A stretch of DNA of 42,881 bases from Candidatus Saccharimonadota bacterium (GTDB taxonomy: Bacteria > Patescibacteriota > Saccharimonadia > Saccharimonadales > Saccharimonadaceae), in the NCBI GenBank assembly GCA_017404955.1, contig JAFRBH010000009.1, positions 1-42,881 of the forward strand, given 5' to 3'. Made by a program: the position numbers and the translations under genes. The notes beneath the pieces are model-generated. The model did not search any database and had not been told where the DNA came from. It saw only the letters and a program-made list of their open reading frames with translations. Shown piece by piece: positions 33,436 through 42,881 of this stretch. The first letter of the stretch is position 1. The number at the start of each line of letters is the position of its first letter.

Positions 33436-34251
33436 ATGATAGAATACGAGCATCAGCCATTTATGACTGTAACTGAGATTAATCCTGAAATGGTGCCTTA
33501 TGTCTACTTTAAATCTAATTGCAATTTTCTATTTCCGAAAATTGATATCAATAAAATCCATCCGGAAATTCCGCTCCTCGTAAATACGATTGAGAGCTAC
33601 TTTGAGGACCTGGAACTGTATTTAACATTAGATTTAACAGACGAGCAGAGCAGGCACATGATTCAAGAACACTACGATGAGCTAATCATTGTGACACAAC
33701 GCTCAGAGAAAACCAAAGAGGAAGCCTTCTGCTACACGATAACACCACTAGGTTCTTTCTATTTTGACTTTTTTCAGCGTAGCAAAGACAATCAACTTTC
33801 GGAGAAGTTTACAGTATTCCTGACTGACGAAATGAAGGAAGGCCTGTATCTAGTTCCTTGCGAAGTTGATTTCCTGCCAGATGGAGGAATATCTGTCTTT
33901 CATGAGTATCTTCCTAGTGGACCATTTCCGCCACTTAGGCCGGAGAAATACCCCGAAGGCTCGCCGCAGCAGCTCAATGCCAAGAAGTATTATGAGATTC
34001 AGGAGCTCAAATATAGTTCTGCAACCTCAGTTTATTATTCTGGCGATGAAGAGTCTGATCTAATAGACGAAGTATTAGCCGAGGATGAAGAATACTGGGA
34101 AGATGATGACTATGATGAGGATGAAGAATACTGGGAAGATGATGACTATGATGAGGATGAAATTGAAGATTTCCTCAATAGCTCGGGCAAAGATTTCTTT
34201 CATGACGACACTTTGGACACCCTGTACTATGTAGTCAGACCCGAAGACTAA
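33436..34251 (+). CDS. Acidic protein with tandem repeat tail, unknown
   Basis: I do not recognise this 271-residue protein. The first 200 residues look like a folded alpha/beta domain with many aromatic residues (VYFKSNCNFLFPKIDI, PLGSFYFDFFQRS). Then follows an extremely acidic region with two exact copies of the 12-residue unit EDEEYWEDDDYD, and a short C-terminal end. There is no signal peptide. The start at 33436 is set by TTAGGAGGTG 5 nt before it. No separate promoter is seen, so it may share the tRNA-Ala transcript. Confidence 0.7.
   Translation: MIEYEHQPFMTVTEINPEMVPYVYFKSNCNFLFPKIDINKIHPEIPLLVNTIESYFEDLELYLTLDLTDEQSRHMIQEHYDELIIVTQRSEKTKEEAFCYTITPLGSFYFDFFQRSKDNQLSEKFTVFLTDEMKEGLYLVPCEVDFLPDGGISVFHEYLPSGPFPPLRPEKYPEGSPQQLNAKKYYEIQELKYSSATSVYYSGDEESDLIDEVLAEDEEYWEDDDYDEDEEYWEDDDYDEDEIEDFLNSSGKDFFHDDTLDTLYYVVRPED
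34081..34155 (+). repeat. 36-bp coding tandem repeat
   Basis: Positions 34081-34116 and 34117-34152 are identical 36-bp units, followed by the start of a third. Each encodes 12 acidic and aromatic residues, so copy number can change without a frameshift. Confidence 0.95.
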
Positions 34252-38565: not shown

Positions 38566-39366
38566 TTACTGATTTTCTTCAGATTTTTCTTCTTCTTTTT
38601 TCTCGTCTTCTTCAGTTTTGGCTGGAGAACCATCGTCGGCGCGCTCCACCCCTGTATTAGTTTCTACAAGAGTCTCCTCTACAAGTACCGCTCGGACAAA
38701 TTGACGCGAGAGATATGTCTGTTGAACCTGAGACCAAACACCAGTACAAGTAATAATTGAGAGGCTCTCTTTCCCTTTTTCTGGTGATTCAACCATCTTG
38801 GCCATCTGACTGTCCGCTTCAGAGAGCGGTACTTCTTCACTCTCCACTACCTTGTACTTGAAGAATTTTCCATCTCCACGCTCAATAACGATGATATCAC
38901 CGATAGCGATATCTGGTAGATGCTTGAAGACACCCTCTTTGGTAGGGCCACCATTATGGCCATCAAGCAACATAGTGCCACCCATGCCGGGCTTGCCAGA
39001 GGAACGGTACCAACCAACATCATAAATACTGACCGGAACTTGTAATCTGCCGATATTATTCAGTCCAACTTCTACCACCCTAGCTCGATCAATGCCGAGT
39101 TTTGCGATAGATAAAAAACGAGGTTTGTTTGGTGCTACTTTATAATTGTTCTTGTCATCATTAGTAACATCTGACTCATCAACATTTTCTACTTCTTCTG
39201 GAGCAATAGTGTTATTGATGGGCGCCATACGAGTAGAGCCTTCTTTACTACTATAGTAATTGTGCTCCCAAATGGCTAGGCGCAAAATAATTGCCAAAAA
39301 GATTAAACCAACTACGCCCCAGATAATCTGGGAACGGTATTTCTTCCAGCTAAATTTTAGAGCCAT
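38566..39366 (-). CDS. Sortase (class E/F-like transpeptidase)
   Basis: The 266-residue protein has a basic N-terminus, one membrane helix (about 14-32), a variable linker and a sortase barrel (about 82-230). The catalytic set is visible: H137 in LLDGHNGG, C207 in ITCTGVW and an arginine in YLSRQFVRAV. A lysine/glutamate tail follows the domain. Sortases join proteins to the wall or to each other. The ATG overlaps the secY stop by one base, so it is made with the translocon. It may act on surface proteins, but the FISUMP protein at 41517 ends without an LPxTG signal. Confidence 0.9.
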   Translation of the reverse strand: MALKFSWKKYRSQIIWGVVGLIFLAIILRLAIWEHNYYSSKEGSTRMAPINNTIAPEEVENVDESDVTNDDKNNYKVAPNKPRFLSIAKLGIDRARVVEVGLNNIGRLQVPVSIYDVGWYRSSGKPGMGGTMLLDGHNGGPTKEGVFKHLPDIAIGDIIVIERGDGKFFKYKVVESEEVPLSEADSQMAKMVESPEKGKESLSIITCTGVWSQVQQTYLSRQFVRAVLVEETLVETNTGVERADDGSPAKTEEDEKKEEEKSEENQ

Positions 39367-40781
39367 TACTTGTAATCATCATAAGTTATCATCAGCGCAC
39401 GTGAGTCTAGCTGACGGAGACTTTCGAGTGCCACCGTCACTACAATTAGAAGTCCAGTACCAGAAATAGAGAGACCGATTGGGTAGCCCATGGTCATGAT
39501 AAAGACGTAGTCTGTGATAAATGGCAACATCGCGATAAGCCCAAGAGCTAGAGCGCCAAAGAGATTAAGACGATTTACTACTTTACCAAGATAAACTGCA
39601 GTGGTGTTGCCAGGGCGAACACCCTCAATGAAGCCACCTTGTTTCTGCAAGTTATCAGCGATTTCCTTAGTATTGAAAATAATGGAAGTATAGAAGTAGG
39701 TAAATGCTACAACTAGAGCAAAGTACATCGCTGGGTATAAGAACCACTTAATAGTGATACCGTCTGGGTATTCAGTGGCGAAGTTGGATGCAGAAGGTGC
39801 AGTAAAAATGGAAACAAGTGCCTGCCCAAAACCGTTGCCTGGATCAATTGACTGAACAAGCTGACCGACAAGTGCCGGCAAAGCCAAAAAGCTAGTTGCA
39901 AAAATCACAGGAACCACTCCAGCAGCAATAAGTTTGATTGGCAAGATTGATTTGATGCCACCATAGCTACTGTTACCATGGACACGCTTAGCGTAATTAA
40001 TAGTAATAATACGCTGGGCTTCGTTAAGTTTGACCAAGAAGTATATCACGATTACCAGTGCCACAGCAAAGCCTAGCACAATCCAGAAGACTGTTGGATT
40101 AACTGGGAGATTGAGCCAGCCAAAGAGTGAGAGTGAACCGTTAGATGTGTCAAATAGGCTACTCCAAAGGCTAGCCATAGTAGTAGGTAACTGAGAGATA
40201 ATAGAAGCAAAGATAATCATGGAAATGCCATTACCAATACCTTGCTCGGTGATAAGCTCACCTAGCCACATCAAGATTACGGAGCCAGCGGTCATAGCGG
40301 CGATTGCCAGAGTCCATTGGGCAGTAGACATCTCAATAGTGGAAGCAGTATTGGCAAGTGCAGACTCTTTTAAGATAAAGATATAGGCAAACGATTGGAC
40401 GATAGCTAGCGGGACAGTAAGAATACGAGTCCATTGATTGATTTTTCTTCTACCAGATTCTCCGTCTTGAGATAGCTCTTCTAGCTTGGGTACAGCTTTA
40501 GTAATAAGCTGGACAACGATAGATGAGGTAATAAATGGAGAAAGGCCAACTAGGATAATCGAGAATGAAGTAAGACCACCACCGGAAATAAGATTTAAGA
40601 AGCTGCCAAAGTCAGATTTAGAGATAAGGTTCTCAATAGCCTCTTTGAAAGTGCTAGCATCACCTAGTGGAACTGGTACATGTGCCAAGAGGCGATAAGC
40701 GATAATGATTCCAAAAACAATCAAAATACGCTTGCGCATATCTTTGTTCAAAAATGATTTAAAAATTGTTTTGAAATGCAT
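39366..40781 (-). CDS. secY: Preprotein translocase subunit SecY
   Basis: The 471-residue protein has about ten membrane helices, the N-terminal DMRKRILIVFGIIIAYRL, the plug region SGGGLTSFSIILVGLSPFI, GIGNGISMIIFASI and a helix-10 segment before LRQLDSRALMITYDDYK. It is the protein channel with SecE. TATTAT and AAGAAGG lie before the ATG. It starts a unit with the sortase gene. Confidence 0.98.
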   Translation of the reverse strand: MHFKTIFKSFLNKDMRKRILIVFGIIIAYRLLAHVPVPLGDASTFKEAIENLISKSDFGSFLNLISGGGLTSFSIILVGLSPFITSSIVVQLITKAVPKLEELSQDGESGRRKINQWTRILTVPLAIVQSFAYIFILKESALANTASTIEMSTAQWTLAIAAMTAGSVILMWLGELITEQGIGNGISMIIFASIISQLPTTMASLWSSLFDTSNGSLSLFGWLNLPVNPTVFWIVLGFAVALVIVIYFLVKLNEAQRIITINYAKRVHGNSSYGGIKSILPIKLIAAGVVPVIFATSFLALPALVGQLVQSIDPGNGFGQALVSIFTAPSASNFATEYPDGITIKWFLYPAMYFALVVAFTYFYTSIIFNTKEIADNLQKQGGFIEGVRPGNTTAVYLGKVVNRLNLFGALALGLIAMLPFITDYVFIMTMGYPIGLSISGTGLLIVVTVALESLRQLDSRALMITYDDYK

Positions 40782-40851: not shown

Positions 40852-40883
40852 CGCCTAATGTCGCACAAGCTACATTGTACGAC
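40852..40883 (+). repeat. 32-bp inverted repeat, left copy
   Basis: These 32 bases are exactly the reverse complement of 42219-42250. They contain a near-palindrome with 9-nt arms (GTCGCACAA and TTGTACGAC, one mismatch) around the 6-nt centre GCTACA. In this copy the symmetry extends to 13-nt arms. In frame the repeat encodes PNVAQATLYD. Confidence 0.95.
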
Positions 40884-41513
40884 ATTAGAGATTCTAAACT
40901 ATATACTGTCCGCAAGCTTGCAGATGGGAATTGTTGGATGACTCAAAATTTAAAATATGAATTATCCACCGGGAAGACACTTGTGGGCGCGGACAATGCG
41001 ACAGGTGAGGCAATTTCATTTACGGTGTCTAGTTGCGCGACTCATGGTAATTGCCCGATGAATAATAATACAAAATTTGGCACTGGTAGTCGGACTTCAG
41101 AGTATTATTATTCTTGGTTTGCTGCTACAGCCGGCAGTGGTTCGAATAGTACACCGAATTACACTGATGCGCCCAATTCCGTCTGTCCTGCGCACTGGAG
41201 AATGCCACCCACAAATATATCATCAACGCCAGACAAATCTTATACCAAGCTTGTAGATTCATATATAACTGGTGCTTGGGATTATGAAATATTGGAAAGT
41301 TCCCCTTTGGATTTTGCTAGAAATGGCGCTCTTTGGGACGGGGTTTTAGTGAATAATGATTATAGTGGGTATTTCTGGTCATCGACAGCGGATAGTAGAC
41401 ATAGTAATGGAGCATATTATACATATCAGCTATATTATAGAACAGACGGAGCGAACACATATGATTCCAGCTCCAGACCACAAGGAGGTAGCGTGCGGTG
41501 TGTTGCGTTATAA
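40875..41513 (+). CDS. Silent FISUMP C-terminal module (no proper start)
   Basis: The 212-residue frame is a FISUMP (Fibrobacter succinogenes major paralogous) module: YTVRKLADGNCWMTQNL at its start, SVCPAHWRMP in the middle, YFWSSTADS and the final GGSVRCVAL. Homology to the C-terminal part of the protein at 41517-42881 begins at PNVAQATLYD, before any start codon. The frame is open back only to a TAG at 40812, with no ATG; the TTG at 40875 lies inside the conserved segment and has no ribosome binding site. There is no signal peptide. It is best read as a stored alternative 3' end, not an independent gene. Confidence 0.75.
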   Translation: MYDIRDSKLYTVRKLADGNCWMTQNLKYELSTGKTLVGADNATGEAISFTVSSCATHGNCPMNNNTKFGTGSRTSEYYYSWFAATAGSGSNSTPNYTDAPNSVCPAHWRMPPTNISSTPDKSYTKLVDSYITGAWDYEILESSPLDFARNGALWDGVLVNNDYSGYFWSSTADSRHSNGAYYTYQLYYRTDGANTYDSSSRPQGGSVRCVAL

Positions 41514-41516
41514 ATG

Positions 41517-42881
41517 TTAGATAGACACACAGCGCACAGAAATGCCGAAGTTTTTGCCATTACCACTGCTGCTAACTTGGTTATTTGGGGCAATACCTCC
41601 AGGACTAATGGCTAAACTGTAGGCATAGTTGCTATAACTAGCATATGGCGTCGCAGACCAGTAATGCCCTGATTGATAATCGAGTACTGCATTGTTGAGT
41701 ACGGCACCTGCGTAGATAAAATCTAAAGGAGCATTTTGGGATTTGGCGGAACCTTCTGCATTACTTAGTAAGGCATATTTAGTTGTGAACAAATTATAGA
41801 ATGACTTATCAACCCCTGAGCCACTTATTGGCAATCTCCACCCCTTTGGACAAATCGATTGAGTAATAGATGGGCTGGCTGCACTTGTGCCTTGTCCAGC
41901 TGTAGCCCCATACCATGTGTAATACCATGAGTTGCCACCGTTTCTAGTATCTATTTCATCGCCAATACTTATATTAGTCCAGGAATTTGGCGTAATGGCA
42001 TAATTATAAGCATTCGCTGAAGTGGTGCTGTTTGGTGTCCAACTAGCAACACCACCGTTAAAAGTCCCTACTTCAAGCGTAACAGAGGTGGAAAGTGTAA
42101 GTCTTATATTTTGCGTCATCCAGCAATTCCCATCAGCCAGTTTCCTGACTCTATAAGTGACAGCATTGGCTCCAGTAGCTGGATTGATAGCCGTACCTGT
42201 TCCGTCTAACCCTCTATAGTCGTACAATGTAGCTTGTGCGACATTAGGCGAAGTGTTATCAGACACAGCTTCATATTTTCCGACCATAGCAGCAATCTTA
42301 TCAATCATTACTGCGGCTGGCTCCGATAAGGCAGTAGCATTAGTTGGTGTATAGACAGAATTACAAATCGTAGACGTCATGTCTTGCATATAATCAATCT
42401 TCCAAAAATCCGGCAATGGTTTCCAGGTGGCATAAAGGGTGCTAGCTCCAGGATTTGGTTTCTGGTCATCCGCTACCACAGTGTACTCCGCCCCAGCCGC
42501 ATAGGATTCCCCAGTACCATCCGCTTCAGTATTCCAACCTGTAAATATGTAATTATTCCTCATCAAAGCGTTACTATTGTCGCTTGGATTAGGTAATGTA
42601 AAAACATAAGATGAAGCTACCGTGCTAGCAGTGAGTGGGCTATATAGATTAGAAACAGTATCTGATGTCCCTGTATCCGGATCAATATCGCCGCCTGCAC
42701 CATCCAAATTAGCATTAAATGTCAAAGAATAATCTATTTCTAGTGGATTTGCCACCGCAGTTAATTCTAGTTCGTTTCTATACGTGCCAGAAGCTATTGC
42801 AGAAGAGACATTAGTACCAATAGTAACAGGTGTTTGTCCATGTTCGGTAGCTGCATTCTTGTTGTCTATCTGCCTATTCTC
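41517..42881 (-). CDS. Large surface protein with InlB-type repeat and FISUMP domain (5' end outside window)
   Basis: The frame is open to the right edge, so at least 454 residues are coded and the N-terminus is missing. It has a Ser/Thr/Asn-rich beta region, an InlB/Listeria-Bacteroides-type repeat (YIFTGWNTEADGTGESY, STLYATWKP), a linker with DMTSTICNSVYTPTNA, and a FISUMP module (VRKLADGNCWMTQNIRL, SICPKGWRLP, GHYWSATPYAS, GISVRCVSI). Composition is that of an exported surface or adhesin-like protein. The module begins at the 32-bp repeat (42219-42250). Its stop is 3 nt from the stop of the convergent module. A GTG at 42755 is not a likely start because the frame continues upstream with the same composition. 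Confidence 0.85.
   Translation of the reverse strand, partial: ENRQIDNKNAATEHGQTPVTIGTNVSSAIASGTYRNELELTAVANPLEIDYSLTFNANLDGAGGDIDPDTGTSDTVSNLYSPLTASTVASSYVFTLPNPSDNSNALMRNNYIFTGWNTEADGTGESYAAGAEYTVVADDQKPNPGASTLYATWKPLPDFWKIDYMQDMTSTICNSVYTPTNATALSEPAAVMIDKIAAMVGKYEAVSDNTSPNVAQATLYDYRGLDGTGTAINPATGANAVTYRVRKLADGNCWMTQNIRLTLSTSVTLEVGTFNGGVASWTPNSTTSANAYNYAITPNSWTNISIGDEIDTRNGGNSWYYTWYGATAGQGTSAASPSITQSICPKGWRLPISGSGVDKSFYNLFTTKYALLSNAEGSAKSQNAPLDFIYAGAVLNNAVLDYQSGHYWSATPYASYSNYAYSLAISPGGIAPNNQVSSSGNGKNFGISVRCVSI
42219..42250 (-). repeat. 32-bp inverted repeat, right copy
   Basis: Exact inverted copy of 40852-40883, in the same reading frame within the surface protein gene. Sequence on both sides differs from the left copy: the module side resumes with two mismatches and then diverges, and the upstream side has only the edge of the repeat in common. 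Confidence 0.95.

Follow-up and report, generated by a model that had tools for sequence, protein, structure and literature searches.

The window (the whole stretch of DNA analysed here, 42,881 nucleotides in length) ends in what appears to be a switch that varies an antigen or ligand through site-specific inversion, likely run by a conserved Xer recombinase; we put the probability of this reading, in which the inversion is predicted from the layout of sites and frames, at roughly 0.8. A tyrosine recombinase of the Xer type, most probably the one Xer that is conserved in the genus, would pair two 30-bp sites and exchange strands within their identical 6-nt spacer, thereby inverting a segment of 1.35 kb. 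A constant, secreted N-terminal part would retain the left half-site and be fused in frame to the adjacent lectin-like FISUMP module, the other FISUMP module would stay silent (stored), and locus-specific spacers would keep each switch private and apart from a separate dif-like site. The features concerned are the following:

39366..40781, minus strand: secY, a conserved neighbour, outside the switch proper
40857..40886, plus strand: core site of the silent module, with left arm 40857-40868 (AATGTCGCACAA), spacer 40869-40874 (GCTACA) and right arm 40875-40886 (TTGTACGACATT), overlain by the perfect repeat 40852-40883
40875..42227, no strand assigned: predicted invertible segment, between the two spacers (in silico)
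40875..41513, plus strand: silent (stored) FISUMP module, without an N-terminal part; 212 codons from the right arm, stop 41511-41513
41517..42245, minus strand: expressed FISUMP module, in frame with the N-terminal part; stop 41517-41519
42216..42245, minus strand: core site of the expressed gene, with left arm 42234-42245, spacer 42228-42233 (GCTACA on the minus strand) and right arm 42216-42227 (TTGTACGACTAT); perfect repeat 42219-42250
42246..42881, minus strand: constant N-terminal part, open to the contig end

A sequence-only reading of this DNA had reported a perfect 32-bp inverted repeat, and both sequence comparison and a repeat search of the window confirm that positions 40852-40883 and 42219-42250 are perfect reverse complements. 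The repeat arms reach 39 nt once two mismatches are allowed, the search returned no second inverted repeat of comparable quality from the rest of the window, and a perfect inverted repeat of 32 bp in 43 kb is beyond chance expectation. Within the repeat lies a nearly palindromic core of 30 bp, AATGTCGCACAA-GCTACA-TTGTACGACATT, in which two inverted 12-nt arms flank a 6-nt spacer; the inverted repeat thus stands as described, with the difference that its apparent functional unit is this core rather than an arbitrary stretch of 32 bp. Beyond the core the two modules agree at 30% of the next 30 ungapped positions (an indel lies there), and their amino-acid identity overall is 38%, so that the perfect match is sharply bounded and does stand out from its surroundings.

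Both modules read NVAQATLYD in the same phase, and both can be assigned to the Pfam family Fib_succ_major (PF09603): the plus-strand module scores 38.5 bits, over the curated cut-off of 33.9, and the minus-strand module scores 33.0 bits alone (just below that cut-off) and 35.2 bits with its frame neighbours included, in which setting both clear the cut-off. The modules are convergent, extend 630 nt (plus) and 702 nt (minus) past the repeat, and have stop codons 3 nt apart. The minus-strand frame extends 212 codons upstream to the contig end (which is the window end, the start codon lying outside the view), and the plus-strand frame is shut by a stop 14 codons upstream. The original description of two modules opening at the repeat in one frame, facing each other, with only the minus-strand module joined to an N-terminal part, is therefore accurate. 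Its further proposal, that inverting the segment would swap the C-terminus in frame, also bears out in silico: replacing 40875-42227 by its reverse complement puts the silent module behind the N-terminal part and leaves the frame open, at 430 aa against 454 aa for the visible part of the protein. This is the inverton feature of short inverted repeats around a segment whose inversion alters the product.

The N-terminal part in the window resembles the N-terminus of a gene on another contig (C3), for which there is a weak match to the Listeria-Bacteroides repeat. At the outer end of the window part, 141 nt (window 42741-42881) are an exact copy of L031:7483-7623, in a gene at the end of contig C11 whose C-terminal domain differs and which has no site, reflecting either a duplicated N-terminus or a second gene family. 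Elsewhere in the window, an exact 36-nt tandem repeat (GAGGATGAAGAATACTGGGAAGATGATGACTATGAT, two copies) occupies 34081-34152, and positions 1-47 are an exact copy of 2680-2726, with tRNA-like repeats nearby at the contig start.

The core site recurs in the genome to which the window belongs (G000; 718 kb in 13 contigs, the window being contig C2). It is present in ten copies, nine of which begin FISUMP modules and one of which is solitary, against a reversed-pattern control that gave one match at three mismatches and none at two:

C2 (window), two sites: spacer GCTACA
C9, two sites: spacer CGCACA; a convergent silent/expressed pair, as in the window
C3 and C13-end: spacer GCAACA
C13-start and C12: spacer CATACA
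C11: spacer CGCACA; an orphan module
Tenth site: intergenic and solitary, with no FISUMP module near

The site is thus not peculiar to the window pair. Nor does it belong to every paralogue, being absent from the FISUMP genes at C5/C1, at C8 and at the C11 end. The sequence-only reading had named, as the pattern that would count against a switch, the same 32 bp conserved at all FISUMP paralogues with no rearrangement; what is found is a set of spacers that differ between loci and match within them.

The arms of the solitary site in G000 are the arms of a dif-like site found across the genus, in 135 of 147 genomes and mostly once per genome (reversed-pattern controls at or near zero), with the consensus AATGTCGCACAA-N6-TTTTACGACATT. 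Its dimensions fit the Xer/dif type (a length of about 28-30 bp, with a 6-nt spacer between a pair of inverted 11-12-nt arms), and it lies beside a VirB4-like ATPase in all nine species checked, often with murG near. It looks like a chromosomal dif; we name it dif-like because no switch in GC skew accompanies it in the one long contig tested (C6 of G107), the skew of C9 in G000 being noisy. The two-arm motif (for example AATGTCGCACAAGATACATTGTGCGAC) also occurs singly in other candidate phyla (L116, L123, L127, L133, L139 and L142, from Patescibacteria), and conservation of the dif-like site may extend across Patescibacteria. Viral contigs yielded 21 motif matches, none of which continues into a FISUMP module.

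Inverted pairs of modules were found in six species (G000, G021, G066, G078, G028 and G147), the relatives with extra sites being Candidatus Saccharibacteria from ruminant guts (for example RGIG2326, which is G147, RGIG5751, RGIG2350 and RGIG2321). Strand exchange by tyrosine recombinases (Xer, Cre, Flp) needs matching spacers, and in 11 of 11 inverted FISUMP pairs the two spacers are identical, with different spacers at different loci; none of 200,000 shuffles of the spacers gave 11 matched pairs, the maximum being 8. In ten of the 11 pairs the modules face each other or an expressed gene is set against a stored module. In G078 the pair on contig C6, which carries three sites, consists of two stored modules, and at the C3 end a stored module lies upstream of the gene, where inversion would flip the N-terminal part. 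The switch proposed from the window alone therefore has counterparts elsewhere in G000 and in further species, which share its arrangement and have locus-specific matched spacers. As separate observations on G078, its silent modules (n=5; L160, L161, L162, L166) have in common a conserved upstream stretch, tggtgggagtcaaatt, and at two loci a silent module lies upstream of an N-terminal part that inversion would flip.

Two further comparisons bear on the origin of the matched spacers. For both the window pair and that of G066, identity ends inside the right arm with no ungapped alignment beyond it (30% over 30 nt), and the spacer identity is hence not due to recent duplication. In G147 a silent/expressed pair sits beside secY in the same layout, with spacers CGTACA and CGTACA where G000 has GCTACA; this is a single orthologous comparison, with one genome per species and the full locus in G147 only. 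Spacers that differ between the two genomes and yet match internally in each indicate that both sites of the locus changed together. Spacer variation falls mainly in the first three nucleotides, which form the codon ahead of a conserved Thr, so that conservation of the site is in part protein coding.

The G000 genome encodes two tyrosine recombinases, on C1 and C8 and neither of them on the window contig, for both of which the best models are XerD/XerC/XerA. A dedicated serine invertase was rejected as a candidate, G000 being without any PF00239 match. The conserved Xer (C1:36298, 329 aa) lies beside a pilin locus in G000 and is present across the genus; the G000 protein has the R-K-HxxR-H-Y residues and scores 246.5 bits to XerD, below the model cut-off. 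The second recombinase (C8, 302 aa, Xer-like) is patchy in the genus. Exactly one PF00589 protein, the conserved Xer, is found in each of G021 (which has two full pairs), G101, G019 and G108; G028 has sites and no tyrosine recombinase in its assembly (possibly a gap in a metagenome-assembled genome). Since the arms are those of the genus-wide dif-like site, the likely enzyme is an Xer tyrosine recombinase and not a shufflon Rci, and the shared arms, together with single-recombinase genomes such as G021, make the conserved Xer the parsimonious and, to judge from these genomes, quite probable invertase.

The same inversion could instead be the work of a dedicated accessory recombinase (the 302-aa C8 protein in G000 and another enzyme elsewhere), which we consider unlikely. 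Extra tyrosine recombinases do occur in G000, G066, G078 and G103, and in Ureaplasma the mba locus is inverted by XerC (demonstrated in M. pneumoniae), an enzyme distinct from the CodV that binds a putative dif (PMC3599477). However, G021 with its two complete pairs, G101 and G019 possess only the conserved Xer, close homologues of the C8 protein are found in few genomes with a distribution that does not track the cassettes, and the arms of the switch sites are those of a solitary site that co-occurs with Xer in most genomes.

Somewhat less likely again is a history in which the cassettes move chiefly by excision and reintegration, in the manner of integrons or pdif modules, with inversion as a by-product. 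The orphan modules are indeed scattered, the C11 orphan has the CGCACA spacer of the C9 pair, and G078 has several one-spacer cassettes on different contigs; yet all of the same-contig pairs analysed (11/11) are inverted, and arrays of directly repeated sites were not seen.

An account without any site-specific recombination, in which the modules are paralogues dispersed through duplication together with homologous recombination or gene conversion, and in which the module start is conserved as a peptide, appears improbable. It would draw on the fact that the site codes within the modules (N-V-A-Q-X-T-L-Y-D) and that 30-110 nt past the site are common to some pairs, but it leaves unexplained the intergenic solitary site with the same arms and no FISUMP module, the FISUMP genes at C5/C1 and C8 that have no site, the spacers that match within loci and differ between them, the break in window-pair identity at the site, and the orphan modules that begin exactly at the site following unrelated DNA.

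On the inversion reading, expressed and silent modules are expected to be intermixed on a tree if they trade places, and they are (11 label changes against a shuffled mean of 9.5, on a weakly supported tree). The complete frames in the 11 pairs are all intact, at 197 codons or more. The window pair and the C9 pair are each cleanly assembled in a single orientation, so that the other orientation was absent or in the minority in that sample. In the G000 assembly (k=141), C3, C13 start and C13 end stop 141 nt past the shared start of the site and C12 stops at 113 nt; in G147 two orphan modules end at 141-142 nt. Such ends, suggestive only, are what would be seen if module starts were joined to more than one flank, and identical paralogues would do likewise. 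The contig end of C3 in G021 had been considered as proof of both orientations, on an exact fit to k=119, and was rejected: other contig ends put the overlap in that assembly at 55 nt, the flank is a repeat found also at C4, and the fit is judged a coincidence. That the sites once recombined and are now fixed in orientation, as the one orientation of each within-contig pair of G000 (window and C9) might imply, is just as improbable as spread by paralogy, given complete silent frames that are intact, spacers that are still matched, and contig ends that in two assemblies lie exactly k=141 away from the site, which suggests module starts with multiple flanks.

The product of the inversion switch would be a secreted protein with an exchangeable tip. 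A confident AlphaFold2 model built on an alignment of 29 modules (pLDDT 89, pTM 0.88) suggests a C-type-lectin-like fold, and its neighbours by VIA-align are mostly of the CLec/FGE type (the Lcl C-terminal domain at Z 7.0, FGE, EgtB, intimin and uPARAP; Z 4-7, below 8). Foldseek with the same model gave E above 0.3, and a search of the PDB by sequence with the module profile gave no match. The first strand of the modelled module is encoded by the site, which places the junction at the domain edge. In complete expressed genes the N-terminal parts open with signal-like sequences (by eye) and have a weak List_Bact_rpt or TIG match. We infer that the FISUMP module binds host or neighbour surfaces.

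The switch was first likened to a shufflon, and in its workings it resembles one. In the R64/IncI shufflon (Rci, pilV), inversion gives a surface protein a different C-terminal part without loss of frame, and partial genes are kept without a start. The likeness does not extend to an adjacent recombinase and multiple segments at the locus: R64 has several segments separated by sfx sites of 19 bp, with rci next to them, whereas the window system has 30-bp dif-like two-arm sites with spacers that differ between loci, no recombinase adjoins the window pair, and each expressed gene of the window, C9, G021, G028 and G147 pairs has a single spare module. Xer-driven phase variation of surface lipoproteins is known from vsa and vpma of Mycoplasma, and our system has in common with those of Ureaplasma and Mycoplasma an Xer-like tyrosine recombinase (a proposed one in this case) and short inverted repeats beside surface protein genes. 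It differs from them in phylum and in its predicted lectin-like module; moreover, in contrast to Ureaplasma with its separate XerC and CodV, switch and dif-like sites here have the same arms and G021 has a single Xer. Two inverted arms, a 6-nt spacer and mostly one solitary site per genome are shared with Xer/dif and pdif, but here inverted pairs lie inside coding sequence and spacers have diversified per locus. Within the library searched, from which most subscription journals fall outside coverage, the word FISUMP occurs in no paper and no paper combines Saccharibacteria, site-specific recombination and inversion.

A second route to variation of these modules is a diversity-generating retroelement (DGR). 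Domains of the Fib_succ_major/DUF1566 family are DGR targets in human microbiomes (PMC4159848), and G000 has a DGR with a FISUMP target, in which 20 of 22 differences between TR and VR fall at TR adenines, assembled from the joined ends of contigs C1 and C5 (L028):

L028:5250-5462, TR
L028:5523-6641, RT
L028:6641-7477, accessory protein
L028:7605-7817, VR

As the cause of the window pair the DGR was rejected: it sits at C1/C5, neither window module has its VR, and the pair itself has no reverse transcriptase and no TR/VR pair with adenine-specific differences. In contrast to a DGR, the window switch would store entire alternative domains, with no need of a reverse transcriptase and no codon mutation. 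The orphan FISUMP module at the start of C11 (L024:1-486, spacer CGCACA) runs at its 3' end into what looks like the beginning of a second VR, over 29 nt with two differences (RSG-L-YGG against RSG-R-YGG in VR1), and this stored module may also be a DGR target.

Dif-like sites are found at other kinds of genes in relatives. Near xer, inverted sites occupy the space between two divergent type IV pilin genes in G123 (L172:5240-5399) and G052 (L108:1380-1527), with matched spacers, and in the same layout in G103 (L174:5051-5202), with near-matched spacers; the sites of each pair are about 90-100 bp apart and enclose an AT-rich, promoter-like segment, which is probably an invertible promoter choosing between pilins. 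In G108 (L169:5245-7376) an array of four pilin genes near xer has three sites with the spacer GAGTGA at the 5' gene ends, both orientations being represented, and pilins may be shuffled there. Saccharibacteria bind to their hosts by means of type IV pili, according to a paper (PMC12206443) that does not mention phase variation or inversion. An inverted pair with the matched spacer CGTTGA in a phage-like region of G145 (L168:5206-5909; C2:28205-28908), with tail-like proteins and broken tyrosine recombinases nearby, could possibly be a tail-protein switch.

If the inversion reading is true, a reduced genome has turned recombination of the chromosome-resolution type to phase variation, the spacer acting as an address code, and the switch loci may explain the assembly breaks found there, which would hide such loci from annotation. 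More tentatively, and with the odds somewhat against it, these loci may form a genome-wide network of receptor variation, in which a housekeeping Xer would work private, spacer-keyed switches on lectin-like tips (and on pilins in relatives) and the DGR of G000 would feed in. In such a network the switches would cross neither one another nor the dif-like site, and the DGR would rewrite FISUMP modules, apparently including the stored C11 orphan, so that mutation and shuffling would feed each other. The switch could help this very small, parasitic bacterium of the gut (Candidatus Saccharibacteria) to alter the targets of its adhesion. Host recognition and host switching are among the main questions about Saccharibacteria, whose life is spent on other bacteria, and a programmed swap of lectin-like tips would single out a well-defined group of candidate recognition proteins that can be tested.
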